From positions 1 through 23,823 of IMG/VR virus record IMGVR_UViG_3300006802_000575: a DNA stretch of 23,823 bases; one strand, written 5' to 3'. Below are positions 3,347 to 10,968 of this stretch, in pieces. The notes beneath the pieces are model-generated. The model ran no database searches. It saw only the letters and a program-made list of their open reading frames with translations, and was not told where the DNA came from. Positions within the stretch are counted from its first letter, which is position 1. Each line of letters opens with the position of its first letter. The translations under genes and the position numbers were made by a program. The DNA comes from a virus.

Positions 3347-3419
<73 letters not shown>

Positions 3420-3518
3420 CCCGGATTCATATAAATCGAGGCAACTCTTTAGGTAGAAATATATGGATAAACAACCCGTCACGGTATGCCTAAGGGTAGG
3501 AGTGAACTGAGGAGAAAT

Positions 3519-3586
3519 AGTCAGGTGGCGTAAGGTAACGCCTCATTATTGTAGATGAGAGATACAGTTCGGAGCGGTCCTGACTA
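3519..3586 (+). tRNA. Degenerate tRNA-like element sharing its acceptor stem with 166-250
   Basis: The 68-nt unit has the same acceptor stem as the element at 166 (AGTCAGG/CCTGACT), the same next bases TGGCG and the same 3' flank ACAAA. It shows a D arm GCG TAAGGTAA CGC and a stem CTCAT/ATGAG. The anticodon loop has 8 bases (TATTGTAG) and the T arm does not pair (CAGTTCGGAGCGG), so it does not meet the normal cloverleaf. It may be a pseudo-tRNA or a tRNA-like RNA. Confidence 0.35.
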
Positions 3587-3591
3587 CAAAT

Positions 3592-3663
3592 TGCGGGATA
3601 GAGCAGTGGTAGCTCGCTAGGCTCATAACCTAGAGGTCATAGGTTCGAGTCCTATTCCCGCTA
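3592..3663 (+). tRNA. Initiator tRNA-fMet (anticodon CAT)
   Basis: This is a complete 72-nt cloverleaf: TGCGGGA/TCCCGCT with a T-T mismatch at the first pair, D stem GAGC/GCTC, anticodon stem CTAGG/CCTAG with loop CTCATAA, and T arm ATAGG TTCGAGT CCTAT. The unpaired 1-72 position and the A11-T24 pair are the hallmarks of bacterial initiator tRNA, against elongator Met or Ile. It has two rather than three G-C pairs next to the loop (AGG instead of GGG), a departure from the usual initiator pattern. Confidence 0.88.
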
Positions 3664-3788
3664 CACTAGCCCTAAGTACACGGGATCGAAAAGCAGTCGT
3701 GGCATACCGTAAGATCTGCTCGCTTAATTGCTCCTAATCGTTAGTAGGCACAGTTGACAACTCTGGAGGCGATACAAAAGTTGTAATT
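3664..3788 (+). other. Structured tRNA spacer without a recognisable gene
   Basis: No tRNA T-arm signature and no open frame is visible in this 125-nt spacer. It holds several possible hairpins: AGCAG/CTGCT (3692-3696 with 3716-3720), CTAA/TTAG around 3734-3744, and ACAACT/AGTTGT (3757-3762 with 3779-3784). It could be a small phage RNA, like the non-tRNA stable RNAs in the T4 tRNA cluster, or merely a processing spacer. Confidence 0.25.
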
Positions 3789-3873
3789 GGAGATTTGGCA
3801 GAGCGGTCGAATGCGGCAGTCTTGAAAACTGTTGAAGGTAATACTTCCCAAGGTTCGAATCCTTGAGTCTCCG
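3789..3873 (+). tRNA. tRNA-Ser (anticodon TGA)
   Basis: This is a complete 85-nt class II cloverleaf: acceptor GGAGATT/AGTCTCC with discriminator G (the usual serine base), anticodon stem GCAGT/ACTGT with loop CTTGAAA (anticodon TGA), a long variable arm, and T arm CAAGG TTCGAAT CCTTG. It reads the TCA and other TCN codons abundant in the window. Confidence 0.95.
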
Positions 3874-3969
3874 CACCTTAATACCGATTCGGGTTTGACG
3901 GTCAAGTGGGCCCTGCGACTATGACTTAGTAATAAGTAATTAGACAAAACGTCATTAAATATCCATCAC

Positions 3970-3993
3970 GTTAGATGGCATCGGTGATCTAAC
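3970..3993 (+). other. Hairpin in the spacer before tRNA-Gln
   Basis: GTTAGAT (3970-3976) pairs perfectly with ATCTAAC (3987-3993) around a 10-base loop, ending 5 bases before tRNA-Gln. No T run follows, so a processing element is more likely than a terminator. The spacer 3874-3998 otherwise shows no gene. Confidence 0.35.
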
Positions 3994-3998
3994 ATTAT

Positions 3999-4069
3999 TA
4001 CCCTTTCGTCTAATGGCAGGACAATTGGTTTTGGTCCAATTAATCGAGGTTCGAGTCCTTGAGGGGTAA
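3999..4069 (+). tRNA. tRNA-Gln (anticodon TTG)
   Basis: This is a complete 71-nt cloverleaf: acceptor TACCCTT/AGGGGTA, D stem GTCT/GGAC, anticodon stem ATTGG/CCAAT with loop TTTTGGT (anticodon TTG), T arm CGAGG TTCGAGT CCTTG and discriminator A. It reads CAA, the dominant Gln codon here. Confidence 0.93.
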
Positions 4070-4076
4070 CATAATT

Positions 4077-4148
4077 GCTCGGTTCGTCTAGGGGTTAGGA
4101 CAGGAGATTTTCATTCTTCAAACAGGGGTTCGATTCCCCTACCGAGTA
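4077..4148 (+). tRNA. tRNA-Glu (anticodon TTC)
   Basis: This is a complete 72-nt cloverleaf: acceptor GCTCGGT/ACCGAGT with a G-T first pair, D stem GTCT/GGAC, anticodon stem GGAGA/TCTTC with loop TTTTCAT (anticodon TTC), and T arm AGGGG TTCGATT CCCCT. It reads GAA, the dominant Glu codon in these genes. Confidence 0.93.
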
Positions 4149-4150
4149 CA

Positions 4151-4215: not shown

Positions 4216-6105
4216 ATGAAAAAAATCCTTTTTTTCCTATTTTTCCTTACCTCTGTAATCTCAGTAAGTGCTAAAACATTACCTGCTCCTGGAACTGGAG
4301 TTTATGTATTAATTGATACTAACTATACTGTAAGTACTTCTTTAAATCCTACAACTACTGCTAGCTTATATTATACTAATAGTACTGCTACTTTAGTTAC
4401 AGGTATGCAGTTTAGAGTATTTTATGATAAGGTAGCATTTAATGGTGCTGCTCCTACAGTCGCTTTAAAATATCCTAGTACCGATCAAAATCTTCAATAC
4501 AACGTTAATACGACTGATGGTTATATTACTATAACCTTGGTTTATACTGGTTCTAACGCTACTTTTAATTACGTTAATAGCGAATTAGTAGCTATCACAT
4601 TTACACACGCTATTGCTTCTACATTTAATAGTTTAGCTAGTATTTCTCCTTTAACTGTAACTGGTGTTCAAACATTTCCTGCTTTTGCTTCTAAAAATAC
4701 AGGTATGGACACAACATTAAATTTATATAGTTATGGTGGTAATTTTTTAAGACCTACATTCTTATTCACTTCTACATTTACTAATGTAACAGGTACAGGA
4801 GCTAAAAATGTTACTATTAAATTATCTAAAAAACCTAAAACTGGATCTACTTGGACTACAATTGGAACTTATACTTCTGATTTAGATGGTATTGTATCTG
4901 TTAATCCGGTTATTGACACTACATTTTGGGATATTAAGTTTGCAGTTCAAGGTGATACAATGAATGTAGGTAAAATTATTTCAGTAGCCGATGCTCAAAA
5001 AGTAAACCAATTCGTATTAGGCACAGCTACTCCTTCAGGATTTGATTTCTATACAGCCGATGTTAATAACTCAAATACTATCTCAATATCAGACGTTTAT
5101 TCTATATTTGGTAGAATCGCAGGCCGATTCTCAGTATGGCCTAATAACACTCCAGATGTAAGATTCTTTACAGCAACTGAATATAATTCAATTAATGGTT
5201 CATCTACAAGTTTAAAATCAACTATACCAGGTGTTACTAATTTTGAGTATTATATTAATGGTACTTCAGTAGTAACTTATTATATTGCTGGTTTAGGAGA
5301 TGCTAATGGTACTGGTTTTAAAATGGCTAGATTAGTTCCTATCCAAATATTAAACCCAAATAACGCTCCTAATTATATTATAGATCAAACAGTAGAATAT
5401 TATGCTAGTTTAAATGAAATTGAAATTAATTTACCTAGTTTAAATGTTGTTGAAGGTAATTTAGTTAATATTCCAGTTAAAGTATTTACAAATGAAGATT
5501 TAGGTTCATTACAATTAGCAATGAAATATGATAAAGATTTATTAGAATTTAAAGGTTTATACACAGATGAAAAACCAATGACTTGGTTATCATTCTTAAA
5601 CGCTAATGATGGTATTGTAGAATGGGGTGGTATAGACATGTCTAATAATAAATTTAACTTAAAAAATAATGAACAAGTTGTTACATTACAATTTTTAGCT
5701 AAAAAACCTAAAGATGAGTGGTCAGCGAGTCCTTTATATGTATCACAAAAATATGTAGGTAATGCTAATGCTTCTGATTTAAATATTAGGCCTACAGATG
5801 GTAGAATTCAAATTCAAAGAGCAATGAATACAGTTGCCTTTAATCCAAATGAAGCTACTATAACTGTATTTCCTAACCCAACAGGTGGTTTAGTTACAGT
5901 ACAATTCAATATACCTAAAGATGGTATTACAACAGTTGCTATTGTAGATATGCAAGGTAATGTTAGAAGAGAAATATTAAGCGGCAAAGTACCTGCAGGA
6001 GCTTATCAGTACGCTGTTAATTTAGATACTATGGCTCCAGGAATGTACTTAGCAGTATTAGAAAACAATGGAAAGGTTATATCAAATAAAACAATTTTAA
6101 ACTAA
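4216..6105 (+). CDS. Type IX secretion cargo with cohesin-like and dockerin-like modules
   Basis: This protein would be exported across the inner membrane, then across the outer membrane by the host type IX secretion system, and anchored or released at the cell surface. It has a signal peptide (1-19, cut after SVSA); a cohesin-like beta domain (about 28-150) with MQFRVFYD; a beta domain (175-245); a dockerin-like pair of helices, VADAQKVNQFVLG (257-269) and ADVNNSNTISISDVYSIFGR (281-300); a linker; a second cohesin-like domain (about 400-535) with SLQLAMKYDKDLLEFKG; and a T9SS type A sorting domain (about 546-629) with VFPNPTGG, G-NV and a final KTILN. The family assignment of the C-terminus (TIGR04183-like) is strong; the cohesin and dockerin calls are by pattern. 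It opens the cassette before the lysis genes. No catalytic domain is visible, so adhesion or scaffolding is inferred. The sorting domain points to a T9SS-bearing Bacteroidota host. Confidence 0.82.
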   Translation: MKKILFFLFFLTSVISVSAKTLPAPGTGVYVLIDTNYTVSTSLNPTTTASLYYTNSTATLVTGMQFRVFYDKVAFNGAAPTVALKYPSTDQNLQYNVNTTDGYITITLVYTGSNATFNYVNSELVAITFTHAIASTFNSLASISPLTVTGVQTFPAFASKNTGMDTTLNLYSYGGNFLRPTFLFTSTFTNVTGTGAKNVTIKLSKKPKTGSTWTTIGTYTSDLDGIVSVNPVIDTTFWDIKFAVQGDTMNVGKIISVADAQKVNQFVLGTATPSGFDFYTADVNNSNTISISDVYSIFGRIAGRFSVWPNNTPDVRFFTATEYNSINGSSTSLKSTIPGVTNFEYYINGTSVVTYYIAGLGDANGTGFKMARLVPIQILNPNNAPNYIIDQTVEYYASLNEIEINLPSLNVVEGNLVNIPVKVFTNEDLGSLQLAMKYDKDLLEFKGLYTDEKPMTWLSFLNANDGIVEWGGIDMSNNKFNLKNNEQVVTLQFLAKKPKDEWSASPLYVSQKYVGNANASDLNIRPTDGRIQIQRAMNTVAFNPNEATITVFPNPTGGLVTVQFNIPKDGITTVAIVDMQGNVRREILSGKVPAGAYQYAVNLDTMAPGMYLAVLENNGKVISNKTILN

Positions 6106-6115
6106 TAAATTAAAC

Positions 6116-6469
6116 ATGGCAAAATTAAAAGAAATCCTAGGATTAGGAGAAACAGAATTCAAGAAAGTAGATGATAAAAATCGTTTCTACTTTATGTTAC
6201 AACAAATGCAAACTAACCGTTGGAAAATTACAGGTATTGTATTATTTTTATTTTTCTTTATTATCTTTGGAATTAACATGGCTGTATTTTTAAATGTTTC
6301 TATTCAAGAGTCTTGGAAAGAAATGTTACTTATCCTTTTAGGTGCCTTTGTAGGTAACTTAAATAAAGTAGTAGACTACTGGTTTAACTCAGAAGATAGA
6401 GACAAAATGTTAATCCAAAAAGTAGACGAAGAAGACGGAAAATCATTATCAAACACTATAACTCAATAA
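6116..6469 (+). CDS. Two-TM membrane protein, holin-like
   Basis: The 117-residue protein has a cytoplasmic N-terminal part (1-34), two hydrophobic segments (about 37-60, ITGIVLFLFFFIIFGINMAV, and about 69-85, EMLLILLGAFVGNL), and a charged tail that starts VVDYWFNSEDRDKM. Two membrane segments joined by a short loop with a charged C-terminus match many phage holins, and a short LLLGAFVG helix followed by a YWF motif is common in them. It lies 10 bases after the T9SS cargo and 4 bases before the next membrane protein, in the same run as the M15 endolysin. Holin is inferred from topology and context. It could instead be an inner-membrane part of the secretion cassette. Confidence 0.6.
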   Translation: MAKLKEILGLGETEFKKVDDKNRFYFMLQQMQTNRWKITGIVLFLFFFIIFGINMAVFLNVSIQESWKEMLLILLGAFVGNLNKVVDYWFNSEDRDKMLIQKVDEEDGKSLSNTITQ

Positions 6470-6473
6470 TAAT

Positions 6474-6764
6474 ATGTCAGAAGAAGAAACACAAGAATCA
6501 ACCTGGACAGGATTGAAGAAAACAATCATTGGAACCTTAGCCACTGTAGTTACAGCAGGTGGCGCTTGGATTGGTACAACTTTGTTTGGTGGTGAAGAGG
6601 CAGCTCCAGCTCCTGTTCAAGCAGCACCTACAATTAATATTACTCAACAAGCAGCTCCAGCAGCAGTACCTGTTAATAACACTACTATCATTCATGAGAA
6701 GACAGTAGAAAAAGCAGCTCCTGCTCCTAAAGAAGAACCTAAAAAAGAAGAACAACCTTGGTAA
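6474..6764 (+). CDS. Single-TM protein with an Ala/Pro-rich periplasmic tail, unknown
   Basis: The 96-residue protein has an acidic N-terminus, one membrane segment (about 17-38, TIIGTLATVVTAGGAWIG) and then a low-complexity region of Ala, Pro, Gln and Val ending in KEEPKKEEQPW. The layout resembles a short TonB-like or spanin-like periplasmic linker: an anchor and an extended, Pro-rich arm. No TonB C-terminal fold is present. It overlaps the CsgG-like gene by one base (TAATG), so the two are probably made together. An inner-membrane spanin role beside a holin-like gene, or an energy or anchoring link for the pore next door, are both possible. The function is unknown. Confidence 0.6.
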   Translation: MSEEETQESTWTGLKKTIIGTLATVVTAGGAWIGTTLFGGEEAAPAPVQAAPTINITQQAAPAAVPVNNTTIIHEKTVEKAAPAPKEEPKKEEQPW

Positions 6765-7516
6765 TGAAAAGTTTTTGGAATAAATACAAACACTTCATTA
6801 TTACAGTATTAGGATTAATGCTACTCACTACATTAGCTATGAACGCTAATGCTCAAGTGGGTAGCGTTAAAACTGAAAAATATCAGGCTGACTTTGAAAA
6901 GAAACAATCTATTGAATTAGTTGCTGATTATAATGGTCCTGTTATTCCTATTCAGATCTTAAAAATTGGAATTAATGAAGAACTATTCGAGATGTATCCT
7001 GAATTAAAGGATAAGCGAGTAGGTTTAGGTGTTACTAATATTGTACTTGAATATTTAGAATATACTAATCGTTTTGAATTTACAGAAGATAAATTAGAAA
7101 TCAAAGAAAAAATGATTGCTCAATTTAAAGCTTCTAATAAAGGATTTACAGAAAATAAAATAGACGGTAAAGGTAAAATTAAGTTAGCCCGTTACTTTGT
7201 TTATATTGAAGTATATGATTTTTCAGTAGCTGAAAATGAAATATTTGACATTCAAAAAGGTAAAAGCTATTCTCGTATAGATCAAACAACTACATTAGGT
7301 TTACAAGTTAGATTTGTAGACGCTCAATCAGGAGAAGTAATTGTTGGGTCTGGTTTAGGAGAAGCTGTTACTGTTAAAGAATCTACTATGTTAGGTAATA
7401 TTGATGAAGTTAAATTTAATCAATCAACAATTGGTATTACTACTAAAAAATCACTTGAAACCGCATCATCTCGTATTGTGAGTAAACTTATTAAAAAAGG
7501 TGTATTTCCACAATGA
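6764..7516 (+). CDS. CsgG-family outer-membrane secretion protein
   Basis: CsgG proteins form the nonameric outer-membrane channel that exports curli subunits. From the ATG at 6764 the protein is 250 residues (a TTG six bases earlier is less likely because the ATG overlaps the previous stop as TAATG). Signal peptide 1-30 ends AMNANA. The CsgG-like body shows the early strand-helix part with KRVGLGVTNIVLEYLEYTNR (84-103), a grown-strand region ARYFVYIEVYDF (142-153), the strand TLGLQVRFVDAQSGEVIV (177-194), GLGEA (197-201) and a long C-terminal helix ending IVSKLIKKG. Length and order fit the family. Curli CsgG is a lipoprotein, but there is no cysteine at the cleavage site here, so it may be soluble in the periplasm or anchored differently. 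It overlaps the next gene by ATGA. No CsgA-like repeat subunit is visible nearby. Confidence 0.75.
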   Translation: MKSFWNKYKHFIITVLGLMLLTTLAMNANAQVGSVKTEKYQADFEKKQSIELVADYNGPVIPIQILKIGINEELFEMYPELKDKRVGLGVTNIVLEYLEYTNRFEFTEDKLEIKEKMIAQFKASNKGFTENKIDGKGKIKLARYFVYIEVYDFSVAENEIFDIQKGKSYSRIDQTTTLGLQVRFVDAQSGEVIVGSGLGEAVTVKESTMLGNIDEVKFNQSTIGITTKKSLETASSRIVSKLIKKGVFPQ

Positions 7517-8754
7517 AAAAATTTATAGTACTATTAGTTTTATTACTGCCCTTAGCTGTATTAGGCCAAAGTACTGTAAACTATTCATATAGTGATCCTT
7601 GTACTGGTAAAGTAAAAAATCTTACTTTTCAAGATAATCAAACTATTACTGTTAATTATTTAGGTTATATTCAAGCTTTTGATTTTAATCAAATTAATAA
7701 TGGTGAACTTGAGACTTGGATTAATGGAGTAGCAAGACAAAATACTTCTAGCCCGTGTGCCGCTGCTACTACTGTTGTTACTACTGCAACTAATTTAGCT
7801 ATAACTAATAATATTATATCTACTTTAACTAATGTCACCTCAGTGGCTACATCTGTAGGTTCAAGTTTAGCCTCAGCTATTCCTATGCCTTCAACTCCAT
7901 CATCTCCTTCTTCTACACCTTCATCTAGTACACCTTCAAGTAAAAAATTAGAAGGAGGTGAAACAAACGATAATGCAACAGAAGAATCTACACCTACTAC
8001 CACAACTACTGAAGGTGGATCAGATAATACAGGAGGATCAATTAGTAATTCAGTTGAAGGCACATCAAGTGAAGGAGGAAACTCAGGTGGAGGTGGTGGA
8101 AAAAGTACAGCTAAAGCTAAAGAAGCTAAAACTAATACTGGTAGTTTAATTGGATCAGGTGATATTGTTGTAACTAATAATAGAAATGATAATACAAATA
8201 ACTTAAGAATGACAGCTAGTATGACTAAGTCAAACTATAAAAATACATTTGCTAAAGGTTTCTTATTTAATTTTACTACTCAACTTAATAACTCTAACCT
8301 TACATTTTATACTGCTTCTACTAAGAAAAAATCTACACTTATATTTGCTAATTCAAGTTTAGTAAATAAAGACTATGATATATTTAATACTACTACAGCT
8401 ATAGAATCTTATCGATTTGGTAAGTTTTCAGCTATGGGAGGAGTTAATTTTACTTTAGGAAAAATAGGTACTAAAGGATTTCAAAATTTATCATCAGTTG
8501 CAGGAGGTTTCTATTTATTCCCGGTGAATAAGAATATAACAGGTAATTTTTTATTATTAAGTGTTTATTCTCCATTTACTCAATTTTATGATGGTAGATG
8601 GTGGAATAGTGGTTTATTGTTAGTACCGTTTAGTTCTTGGGATTTTAAAGTAACTAAAACATTTAAATTTAATATTAGTTTCTCAGGAGTATATGAATTA
8701 AATAAAAGTATGTTAAATTACCAGATATTAACTGGTGGAAAAATAATGCTATGA
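7513..8754 (+). CDS. Secreted protein with Ser/Thr/Gly linker and probable outer-membrane beta-barrel
   Basis: The 413-residue protein has a signal peptide (1-18, ending LAVLG) and a small N-terminal beta domain with two cysteines (C30, C82). Next comes a long low-complexity region (about 125-215) of Pro, Ser, Thr, Gly and Glu with a GGGGG run. The C-terminal part (about 230-413) has alternating hydrophobic and polar strands, rich in aromatic residues, such as KFSAMGGVNFTLGKIG and FKFNISFSGVYEL, as in a small outer-membrane barrel. It overlaps the CsgG-like gene by ATGA and the next gene by ATGA, so production is likely coupled. I recognise no named family; it is not an evident CsgE or CsgF. 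A role as partner, anchor or cargo of the CsgG-like channel is inferred from order alone. Confidence 0.6.
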   Translation: MKKFIVLLVLLLPLAVLGQSTVNYSYSDPCTGKVKNLTFQDNQTITVNYLGYIQAFDFNQINNGELETWINGVARQNTSSPCAAATTVVTTATNLAITNNIISTLTNVTSVATSVGSSLASAIPMPSTPSSPSSTPSSSTPSSKKLEGGETNDNATEESTPTTTTTEGGSDNTGGSISNSVEGTSSEGGNSGGGGGKSTAKAKEAKTNTGSLIGSGDIVVTNNRNDNTNNLRMTASMTKSNYKNTFAKGFLFNFTTQLNNSNLTFYTASTKKKSTLIFANSSLVNKDYDIFNTTTAIESYRFGKFSAMGGVNFTLGKIGTKGFQNLSSVAGGFYLFPVNKNITGNFLLLSVYSPFTQFYDGRWWNSGLLLVPFSSWDFKVTKTFKFNISFSGVYELNKSMLNYQILTGGKIML

Positions 8755-10007
8755 GATATTTGCTAATATTACTATTATTACCTTTAAATTTATTAGCACA
8801 AAATTTTTCATATTCAGGATATGTTTATAATGCTGATAATACAGGGGCACTTAATGTTCCTATAAAGTTGTATGCTAGAACATCTAATGTAGCGGCGGTA
8901 GTTCAAAACTCTGAACAATTTGGAGTGTCTAATGGTTCAGCTTGGTTAACTAAAAATACATATAGTGGTACTCCAAATAATAGCACAACATATAACTATA
9001 GTACAACTAATGCTTTTACAATCACTACATCAGCAGGATCAGCTACTATAGCTCCATTTACTTCTAATATCCCTGCTAATAGAAATAGAGGTACATCTGT
9101 TTTATTTTCATCACTTAATTCAGATGAAGGTTCAGTAATTATAACATTTCCTTCAGGATTTACTCCTTCTTTTTTAGGCACTACTTATTCTAGTGGTCAT
9201 ATAAATACTAATTCATGGTTCACATTTGGAACTAATAGTAGTTCAGGATATAGTGGTACTGCTTCAAATCCTAATGCACCCACACTGCATATAGGATCTG
9301 TAAGTAATAGTACTACAGATAATAATATGTCTTATACTAGTACAGAATCTTACACTGATCCATATTGGGGAGATGTTTTTAGAGTAAGATATGAAGGTAA
9401 TTCTAATTATAGTCAACAAGGTATTAACACTATTTATGACTTATATTTTATAAAAAATCAACCTAATACCCAATTAGTTGTATGGAGACAATTTACAACA
9501 GATGGTTCATCTACCTCAGTAAGTGGGTCACCTCCAGGACCTTGGACTTTAAATACTACATCTATTACTAATTCAACAGGTTATTATTCTTTTAATACAA
9601 GTTTAAATATTTCATCTTATGAATTTTATATTCAAATAGATGTACCTAGTCCTATATCTAATTTAGATAATAATGATATAATTAATACTCTTAAAGTTAT
9701 TAATGGTACTATTCCATTTAATAGTTCTTTTTATTATTTAAATGATGTAAATGGAGATGGAAAAGTTACTGTGTCTGATGCTTATTATATTGGAGCTAAA
9801 AAACAAGGAAGATTTACAACATGGGTAGGAACTTTTACTTCTCGACTATTTACTCCTACAGAATATTCAACAATTAAATCTAATACTTCAAATCTAAAAC
9901 CGACTTATCCCGGCGTATCTTCAATTACTATCTCTAATCCCACAAGTGGCGGTAGTAGTAATTACTATATTATAGCTCCGGGTTATAGCACTAATACAAC
10001 ATTTTAA
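8751..10007 (+). CDS. Secreted beta-rich protein ending in a dockerin-like module
   Basis: The 418-residue protein has a signal peptide (1-16, ending NLLA) and a carboxypeptidase-regulatory or Ig-like start (18-45, YSGYVYNADNTGALNVPIKL). A large beta-rich, Ser/Thr/Asn-rich ectodomain (about 85-300) includes a W-rich section with VVWRQF. The C-terminus has a dockerin-like pair: DNNDIINTLKVINGT (306-320) and NDVNGDGKVTVSDAYYIG (331-348), the latter with the Ca-binding DxNxDGxxxxxD spacing. The part after it (GRF.TW, then LFTPTEY, LKPTYPGV) repeats the same order as the T9SS cargo at 4216, so the two proteins share a module of about 80 residues. It lacks a T9SS sorting domain, so it may reach the surface by the neighbouring CsgG-like channel or by docking. 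Adhesion or assembly is inferred; no enzyme motif is seen. Confidence 0.65.
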   Translation: MRYLLILLLLPLNLLAQNFSYSGYVYNADNTGALNVPIKLYARTSNVAAVVQNSEQFGVSNGSAWLTKNTYSGTPNNSTTYNYSTTNAFTITTSAGSATIAPFTSNIPANRNRGTSVLFSSLNSDEGSVIITFPSGFTPSFLGTTYSSGHINTNSWFTFGTNSSSGYSGTASNPNAPTLHIGSVSNSTTDNNMSYTSTESYTDPYWGDVFRVRYEGNSNYSQQGINTIYDLYFIKNQPNTQLVVWRQFTTDGSSTSVSGSPPGPWTLNTTSITNSTGYYSFNTSLNISSYEFYIQIDVPSPISNLDNNDIINTLKVINGTIPFNSSFYYLNDVNGDGKVTVSDAYYIGAKKQGRFTTWVGTFTSRLFTPTEYSTIKSNTSNLKPTYPGVSSITISNPTSGGSSNYYIIAPGYSTNTTF

Positions 10008-10009
10008 AC

Positions 10010-10462
10010 ATGAAACACCTACTAATCTTTTTATTCTTATTATTACCGTTTACTTTATTAGCAAACGATTGTGTTTACGTTAATCAAATAACTGTAAATA
10101 AAAAATTTAAAGAATTAAACAGCAGAAACATTAAATTTGGTATAAAACAAATTACAGAGGAATTACTATCAGAAAGATATTGTCTGGCGGACTCTTCTAA
10201 CGCTGTTGATATAGAAGTATATTCTATAGGAGCCCCTAAAACCACCATTCGTATTATAGGTGCCTCGTCAATATCTCAAGTTACTCAAATTAGTTTAAAA
10301 GTAACTTATAAAGGAGTAGTATATGAAGGTTTAGGAGAAGCTGAAACTGATGTTAGATCTATGTTTATTGAATTAGAAAATAATGAAGTACCATTTAACA
10401 ACACTACTATATCAATTGCTTTAAAAAGAGCACTTCAAAACGCTATACAAAGGTTACCTTAA
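10010..10462 (+). CDS. Small periplasmic protein resembling the C-terminal part of the CsgG-like protein
   Basis: The 150-residue protein has a signal peptide (1-18, ending FTLLA) and a mature part with alternating strands and helices. Its second half (about 93-148) runs ISLKVTYKGVVYEGLGEA, then EVPFNNTTISIALKRALQNA. This matches by eye the CsgG-like protein at 6764 from LGLQVRFVDAQSGEV through GLGEA to EVKFNQSTIGITTKKSLETA, with similar spacing. It therefore looks like a shortened paralogue without the full channel-forming part. Cysteines at 21 and 58 could form a disulfide. It starts 3 bases after the dockerin-like protein and ends 36 bases before the endolysin. A periplasmic adaptor or accessory to the channel is inferred. 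Confidence 0.6.
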   Translation: MKHLLIFLFLLLPFTLLANDCVYVNQITVNKKFKELNSRNIKFGIKQITEELLSERYCLADSSNAVDIEVYSIGAPKTTIRIIGASSISQVTQISLKVTYKGVVYEGLGEAETDVRSMFIELENNEVPFNNTTISIALKRALQNAIQRLP

Positions 10463-10463
10463 A

Positions 10464-10477
10464 ATATTTATTATTAA
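10464..10477 (+). promoter_or_regulatory. Weak copy of the recurrent motif
   Basis: ATATTTATTATTAA begins two bases after the stop of the small periplasmic protein and 34 bases before the M15 peptidase. It keeps the ATATTTAT core of ATATTTATAAYACG and could give the endolysin its own start of transcription. Confidence 0.3.
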
Positions 10478-10497
10478 ACAACTAAAATCAAAAAATT

Positions 10498-10968
10498 ATG
10501 CAATTATCAAAGTATTTTACACTAGCTGAATTAACTCCTTCGGGAACAGCAAAACGTTTAGGTATTTCAAACAATCCAACTCCTGAACACTTAGAATGTT
10601 TAAAAGGATTAGCGGTTAACGTATTAGACAAAGTAAGAGAACATTTTGGAAAACCAATTTGGGTATCTTCAGGTTACCGATCTAAAGCGTTAAACGAGGT
10701 TACTCCTGGTTCTAGTGCTACATCACAACACTGTACAGGCGAAGCTGCTGACTTGGATCAAGACGGTAGAGGTACAGGTGTAACTAATAAAATGGTGTTT
10801 GATTATATTAAAGATCATTTAAATTTTGATCAATTAATTTATGAGTACGGTACTGATGCTAATCCTGATTGGGTTCATGTTAGCTGGGAATCTACAGGAA
10901 AACAAAGAAAACAAGTATTACGTTGTACTAGAGTAAACGGTAAACCAGTTTACACACCATACAAGTAA
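10498..10968 (+). CDS. Peptidase M15 family endolysin
   Basis: This is a zinc D-Ala-type peptidase (M15_3 group) that would cleave peptidoglycan cross-links at lysis. Nearly the whole 156-residue protein is the domain: a start SKYFTLAELTPSGTA, R61 in SSGYRS, zinc ligands H78 and D85 in SQHCTGEAADLD, catalytic-type E116 in DQLIYEY, and the last ligand H127 in DWVHVSW. All key residues are present. There is no signal peptide, so it needs a holin or membrane change to reach the cell wall; the two-TM protein at 6116 is the nearest candidate. The leader is A-rich (ctaaaatcaaaaaatt). This gene gives the best-defined function in the cassette and fits late expression. Confidence 0.92.
   Translation: MQLSKYFTLAELTPSGTAKRLGISNNPTPEHLECLKGLAVNVLDKVREHFGKPIWVSSGYRSKALNEVTPGSSATSQHCTGEAADLDQDGRGTGVTNKMVFDYIKDHLNFDQLIYEYGTDANPDWVHVSWESTGKQRKQVLRCTRVNGKPVYTPYK

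Follow-up and report, generated by a model that had tools for sequence, protein, structure and literature searches.

What would a phage gain from a block of genes for exported proteins placed directly beside its endolysin gene? The question is raised by IMG/VR viral record IMGVR_UViG_3300006802_000575 (hereafter the window, the whole stretch of 23,823 bases that was analyzed), in which seven genes taken from the open reading frame list and lettered A–G here (positions 4216–10462) lie between five transfer RNA (tRNA) genes (3347–4149) and an M15 endolysin gene (10498–10968, plus strand; Pfam 3e-17, PHROG endolysin 5e-35). An earlier note, made from the letters alone, had described this block as a surface or secretion cassette, and the open reading frames, tRNA genes and domain searches match the layout it gave. 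Our analysis leans toward the cassette being an envelope-spanning surface-display system that the phage would make during infection of Bacteroidota. Judged from sequences and predicted structures, the reading that we somewhat prefer is a swappable lectin shown on the infected cell, partly via the host type IX secretion system (T9SS). Of the readings considered, surface display agrees best with the T9SS signal, the cohesin, the swapped lectin heads and the envelope folds.

Gene A (4216–6105, plus strand) encodes an exported protein composed of an N-terminal region, a dockerin-like stretch (residues ~256–340), a cohesin (404–533) and a T9SS type A sorting domain (551–628). The cohesin exceeds its cut-off (PF00963, 27.2 bits vs. 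24.1), as does the sorting domain in two models (Por_Secre_tail, 36.8 bits vs. 27; C-terminal TIGR04183, 37.8 bits vs. 23), and TIGR04183 was present in all 17 relatives of A scanned (E 0.01). The protein had been called a T9SS cargo, and a sorting domain above the curated cut-off predicts export by this route. When the profile of the cohesin half of A was compared with PDB sequences, the top row was 5jvk (E 0.00085, end part of 5jvk), and the best cohesin rows reached only E 0.033 and 0.043. In the lineage of immuto, a cultured Flavobacterium phage, A is split into two genes, gp014, which stops after the dockerin-like stretch, and gp015, which contains the cohesin (36.7 bits) and the sorting domain (34.6 bits). 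This split parts the cohesin and the C-terminal domain from the dockerin-like half, and we count it in favor of display. Since A has a T9SS signal and immuto infects Flavobacterium, the host of the window phage is probably a member of the Bacteroidota.

The candidate for the displayed protein is F (8751–10007, plus strand), an exported protein made up of a head (residues ~45–253) and a tail (264–418). Among 108 F proteins of at least 250 residues, taken from representatives of the locus groups defined below, heads matched Lectin_C (55), Laminin_G_3 (17), SdrD_B (13), GEVED (11) and PA14 (6), counts that may overlap; the head of the window F matched no Pfam family. The last ~150 residues of F are conserved among relatives and resemble a stretch of A. 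The earlier note had named F a dockerin-ended secreted protein, of which export and a dockerin-like tail stand, whereas the dockerin family proper was missed (PF00404, 13.9 bits vs. a cut-off of 22.9), one clear EF-hand-like loop being present in place of the two calcium loops of a dockerin. Dockerin_1 was found in 2/108 F proteins at E 0.001, and a dockerin profile gave matches at E 0.1 (the best at 0.004) in 10 of 22 sequences, comprising F tails and dockerin-like stretches of A; no solved dockerin was matched in a comparison of the dockerin-like tails with PDB sequences.

Comparison of F among phages with nearly the same D gene revealed that, as far as alignments can tell, the heads are exchanged as units in most of the pairs in which they differ. 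From 119 distinct combinations of D and F we obtained 130 pairs in which D identity was 93% or higher; they are not independent, because several have members in common. F heads were less than 40% identical in 48 of these pairs, and G never fell below 40% (minimum 43%). The pair L163/L168 is an example, with identities of 100% for D, 92% for E, 91% for G and 78% for the F tail, and 17% for the F head. Heads of the same type were constrained (ratio of nonsynonymous to synonymous substitution rates, dN/dS, 0.08 and 0.10 in two comparisons), and tails were looser (0.32–0.57 in two or three comparisons). One phage carries two tandem F genes (L230:4784–7060), and in a few phages an extra exported barrel-like protein, X267, is encoded between F or E and G (L003:8725–9528; L010:3741–4535; L027:11211–12020).

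D (6764–7516, plus strand) encodes an exported protein with a predicted CsgG fold. The first 13 Foldseek rows for its AlphaFold model (predicted local distance difference test score, pLDDT, 72) were all CsgG (top E 6e-7, TM-scores 0.42–0.50), and VIA listed eight CsgG entries at Z 11.3–12.1 with 162–181 residues aligned, followed by Cj1090c (Z 10.4), which we take to be an LptE-like chain, and PelC (9.4). PelC, LptE, PqiC and TraT were considered as identities of D and rejected, because their VIA rows lie below CsgG and have only the fold in common. The window D gave no match to Pfam CsgG (PF03783) at E up to 1, and this family was detected in 4 of 16 aligned relatives (best E 8.5e-5); the D profile had no match among PDB sequences at E 1. 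What had been called a CsgG-family protein is thus upheld in its predicted fold but not in a Pfam match of the window protein. The model contains one long hairpin (146–188) and lacks the second CsgG-type hairpin, and of 127 relatives, 41 have a lipobox pattern that the window D lacks. When the seven cassette proteins and three neighbors were scanned with Pfam, no CsgE, CsgF or curlin match appeared. The small exported protein G (10010–10462, plus strand) is a remote homologue of D (33% identity over part of the protein, E 9e-6; profile-profile E 3e-10), in agreement with the CsgG relationship proposed for it earlier. Its profile retrieved only ribosomal S1 and DBF4 rows from the PDB, which were judged chance matches.

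E (7513–8754, plus strand) was modeled by AlphaFold (pLDDT 66.7) as a small N-terminal beta domain, a helix (83–114), a disordered linker (115–206) and a 12-strand barrel (211–412), so that the probable outer-membrane barrel of the earlier note is also what the model predicts. VIA aligned it with NalP (Z 25.7), EstA and EspP (22.8), the porin KdgM (19.4) and FapF (18.9), and Foldseek placed an OmpC model first and NalP second. Autotransporter translocators and FapF likewise combine a 12-strand barrel with a helix; however, they have the fold alone in common with E, whose helix and barrel are ~90 disordered residues apart, and porins fit the model too.

Two membrane proteins, also in line with the earlier description, are recognized by topology. 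C (6474–6764, plus strand) has a short cytoplasmic N-terminus, one transmembrane segment, a tail rich in Pro, Ala, Asn and Gln, and a C-terminal Trp that is present in 118/118 complete copies from group representatives. B (6116–6469, plus strand), a small inner-membrane protein with two hydrophobic segments, is holin-like by topology only; its best family match was PHROG 38564 (function unknown, E 8e-5), it had no Pfam match above cut-off, and its slot is filled in relatives by other small membrane proteins. The genes from C to F (6474–10007) are arranged as expected for the coupled translation claimed before. The stop codon of C and the ATG of D share one nucleotide (TAATG), for which reason D probably starts at 6764 rather than at the listed TTG at 6758; D/E and E/F each overlap by 4 nucleotides, and the gap between F and G is 2 nucleotides. 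Reading of the sequences by eye found signal-peptide-like N-termini in A, D, E, F and G, the five of seven that had been reported; a hydropathy rule agrees on this 5/7 but is blind to the distinction between signal peptide and anchor (B passes in 70/70).

To what extent is this gene set a unit? A single-protein query with D found relatives at 37 IMG/VR loci, and a pattern scan with D gave a relative, confirmed by alignment, in at least 563 of the 600 matches listed, of which the best 80 were kept. In scans with A and E, 326 of 338 and 236 of 243 pattern matches aligned, respectively, and the best 80 of each were kept. Grouping by shared 31-mers reduced the resulting 255 loci, some of which lay on one contig, to 138 groups, and 48 of the 138 representatives, the window not among them, had at least 5 kb on either side of the cassette. 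Because loci were recruited through A, D or E, each of these 48 full loci necessarily contains at least one of the three. A, D, E and G were found in all 48, F in 47 and C in 44, and 43 had the complete core of six (A, C, D, E, F and G); C was missing from L197, L203, L219 and L250, and F from L224. The same 48 loci had B in 25, a gene TM80 in 20, a gene TM94 in 3, a secreted family S148 in 28, GH19 in 31 and M15 in 0. A fairer test was offered by the A-scan and E-scan groups, whose representatives were not recruited with D. Of the 46 A-scan groups, 40 were long enough for the test, and the distance between A and D was no more than 2.5 kb in 39 of them and 2.8 kb in the last (L138). Of the 35 E-scan groups, 28 were long enough, and D stood directly upstream of E in every one. 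The search for the same gene order in related phages that the earlier note had proposed therefore found it widely kept. Because many non-redundant contigs show this order and dN/dS is low for A–E and G (0.06–0.27 in three comparisons), we conclude that the cassette is not a chance assembly.

The distribution of the cassette was largely viral. Three D relatives were found among 84,980 bacterial and archaeal genomes, all on contigs of metagenome-assembled genomes and each beside other cassette genes, in a scan that relies on conserved peptide words and that distant host homologues could escape. In tblastn searches of 50,697 named phage records with A, B, D and F, matches to D, A or F came only from the four immuto records, and B had none. 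Immuto carries the cassette, largely unannotated, as gp013–gp019 at 10.5–16.4 kb beside replication genes, F being gp013, D gp017 and E gp018; the same lectin-cassette phage has a cluster of glycosyltransferase and sugar-epimerase genes at 49–60 kb (L257:20773–31589). In the window, the cassette is followed downstream by baseplate wedge genes (PHROG matches), presumably of the T4 gp25 and gp6 types. Wedge identity to the window was 47.2% in Microcystis phage Mel-JY01, 45.8% in immuto and 38.7% in LR756508, and tblastn found no match to D in Mel-JY01 or LR756508, which indicates that the cassette is not simply tied to a baseplate lineage. The S148 protein (~150 residues), which adjoins the cassette in the 28 full loci mentioned above, is represented by L024:7161–7607 (minus strand), L036:4488–4946 and L028:10163–10606; the L024 copy has an HExxH-type motif (HESRH) and no Pfam match. 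A homing-endonuclease family protein (PHROG 314) is encoded at 342–1022 of the window.

The T9SS domain, the cohesin, the CsgG fold, the barrel, the lectin-headed F and the kept order give good support to the general claim of a surface or secretion cassette. As surface display, it might work as follows. The host T9SS would export A, or its cohesin half, and fix it to the cell surface, and the cohesin would serve as the docking site for two dockerin-like tails, that of F and that of the N-terminal half of A. In the outer membrane, D, G and E may assemble into a complex for export or anchoring that C ties to the inner membrane, and F could reach the surface through this complex. More speculatively, the displayed head would bind glycans of neighboring cells or of the infected cell itself, which might thereby keep future hosts near or block re-adsorption. 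A more specific version, which we regard as possible but rather doubtful, is a two-route machine in which a small adaptor with cohesin and T9SS signal would carry swappable, dockerin-tailed lectins through the T9SS surface pathway of the host or onto it, with C, D, G and E as a dedicated trans-envelope complex that would anchor or export them; the phage would thereby pick what the dying cell sticks to. We know of no virus that encodes such an adaptor-based display system.

Several observations weigh against surface display. The D and E models, built on shallow alignments, are of modest confidence (pLDDT 72 and 67). The superposition of D on CsgG reaches only the TM-scores given above, Cj1090c follows not far behind CsgG in VIA, and the single long hairpin of D leaves a CsgG-type pore unsupported. 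Simple porins also fit E, as the KdgM score and the first Foldseek row indicate. Since the F tail is below the Pfam cut-off and matched no solved dockerin, the pairing of cohesin and tail is hypothetical, and F, whose exit route is putative, has no T9SS signal. The tail was also less than 40% identical in 13 of the 130 pairs, and G only 43–56% in some, which shows that exchange was not limited to heads. Finally, the frequent adjacency to endolysin genes points to a role in lysis.

This last observation is the basis of the best-surviving alternative, which we consider improbable, though less so than the others: that the cassette is an outer-envelope part of the lysis machinery, in which C in the inner membrane and D, G and E in the outer membrane act in a spanin-like manner after the endolysin, with A and F gripping surface glycans from outside. 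Matches to GH19 or M15 endolysin hidden Markov models were found in 74 of the 138 groups; 68 of these lay no farther than 1.5 kb from the cassette and the other six no farther than 3.03 kb. The remaining 64 groups include short contigs, and the search was confined to the GH19 and M15 families; by a rough estimate, a random gene in a ~150-kb genome would lie within 5 kb in ~7% of cases. Many relatives carry a GH19 endolysin instead of M15. This neighborhood may reflect either late expression or a part in lysis. The lysis reading is also favored by small membrane genes with holin-like topology that separate C from D in many loci, by the TM94 gene (transmembrane segment plus coiled coil) occupying the same slot in its three full loci, and by a D identity between the window and immuto of 66.5% (vs. 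45.8% for the baseplate wedge), as expected for a core gene. In terms of two-component spanins, the C and D genes are coupled and the lipobox occurs in the 41 of 127 D relatives, but not in the window D. To our knowledge, lectin heads, cohesin and T9SS signals play no part in known spanins. Immuto also argues against obligatory linkage, as its GH19 gene (gp191), a TM80-type neighbor and a holin (Phage_holin_4_1) lie at ~43.3–44.8 kb, ~27 kb from the cassette, although an annotated glucosaminidase-type endolysin at 22.1 kb is 5.7 kb away. The linkage between cassette and endolysin is common, not obligatory; replacement of spanins and export before lysis, both raised in the earlier note, were accordingly not established, and spanin replacement is a weaker explanation than surface display. 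A lysis role has likewise been proposed for a methylophage CsgG (PMC9004378). An Rz/Rz1-like overlap of C and D was dropped as a candidate, the overlap being only 1 nucleotide. Beside TM94, which has i-spanin-like topology, lies a repetitive protein ending in NWF (L019:15336–16513; L012:8722–9977), whose C-terminal aromatic residue recalls the Trp of C.

Somewhat less probable still is superinfection exclusion or receptor masking, in which the displayed lectin would cover or cross-link the surface glycans of the host itself. The swapping of heads between phages with near-identical D and the glycosyltransferase cluster of immuto are in keeping with it, and the same idea was put forward for the T9SS cargo of Cryophage (PMC7468147). 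However, no PADLOC model matched the seven proteins at E 0.01, by which a defense system was also rejected, and the sequence holds nothing to tell exclusion from adhesion; among adhesion, exclusion and lysis, it cannot choose. Lectin, Ig-like and PA14 domains are also found on virions, which would fit a third alternative, that A and F simply decorate the virion and that their N-termini mislead. We consider this very unlikely, given the signal-peptide-like N-termini in 5/7, the T9SS signal in 17/17 relatives of A, the envelope-type folds predicted for D and E (the two of the seven that were modeled), and no PHROG virion family matching any of the seven at E 1. Neither outcome that the earlier note had named as fatal to its proposal was seen: gene order is kept among relatives, the two predicted structures are of envelope type, and neither Pfam nor PHROG linked any of the seven to a virion family at E 1. 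Surface display remains the preferred reading, and what the cassette offers is a widespread gene set with a binding head exchanged on a fixed scaffold, outside any recognized tail-fiber gene. If lectin display is true, phage 'sibling capture' or surface masking becomes directly testable; if the cassette serves in lysis, it would reveal a way in which the outer membrane of Bacteroidota is breached by some phages.

How does the cassette compare with known systems? A literature search, which covered titles and abstract openings and left most subscription journals outside, found no description of this gene combination; the nearest precedents are the curli clusters of pelagiphages and the T9SS cargo of Cryophage. 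Type VIII secretion genes occur in pelagimyophages and in pelagiphages of the HTVC023P type, and 'sibling capture', superinfection defense and uptake have been proposed as their roles (PMC7029224, PMC9599517). The gp014–gp018 cluster of HTVC008M, as far as the accessible accounts describe it, is like the cassette in being phage-borne and in combining CsgG with exported surface proteins, and the PA14 domain of its gp018 resembles the PA14 heads of some F proteins. HTVC008M, however, has a true CsgG together with CsgF and, in gp018, curlin repeats, the latter two of which Pfam did not detect in the seven proteins of the window, whereas the cassette has a T9SS signal, a cohesin, a dockerin-like tail and a barrel. 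Hidden Markov models of A–G found no convincing homologue in HTVC008M (best E 0.02), and hhalign gave no significant match between D and its CsgG; fold and plan are in common, and no operon-level kinship was found. The gp018 protein itself (L260:10638–11963), annotated as hypothetical, suggests an adhesin-tipped curli-like fiber by its PA14 domain and curlin repeats. The methylophage Melnitz has a CsgG and CsgF pair that was proposed to regulate lysis, with no clumping observed, and the available text of that account contains nothing resembling A, E or F (PMC9004378). Cryophage carries variable T9SS cargo genes with type A sorting domains, one with PA14, and thus, on the available part of the paper, resembles the cassette in phage-encoded variable proteins tied to T9SS type A sorting; its main text never mentions CsgG or cohesin (PMC7468147), and in the cassette the variable F lacks the T9SS signal, which is borne by the conserved partner A. 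With cellulosome-type display the cassette shares a cohesin and modular binding heads on constant tails, but its tail, with one clear EF-hand-like loop, lies below the dockerin cut-off and is a candidate partner of the cohesin.

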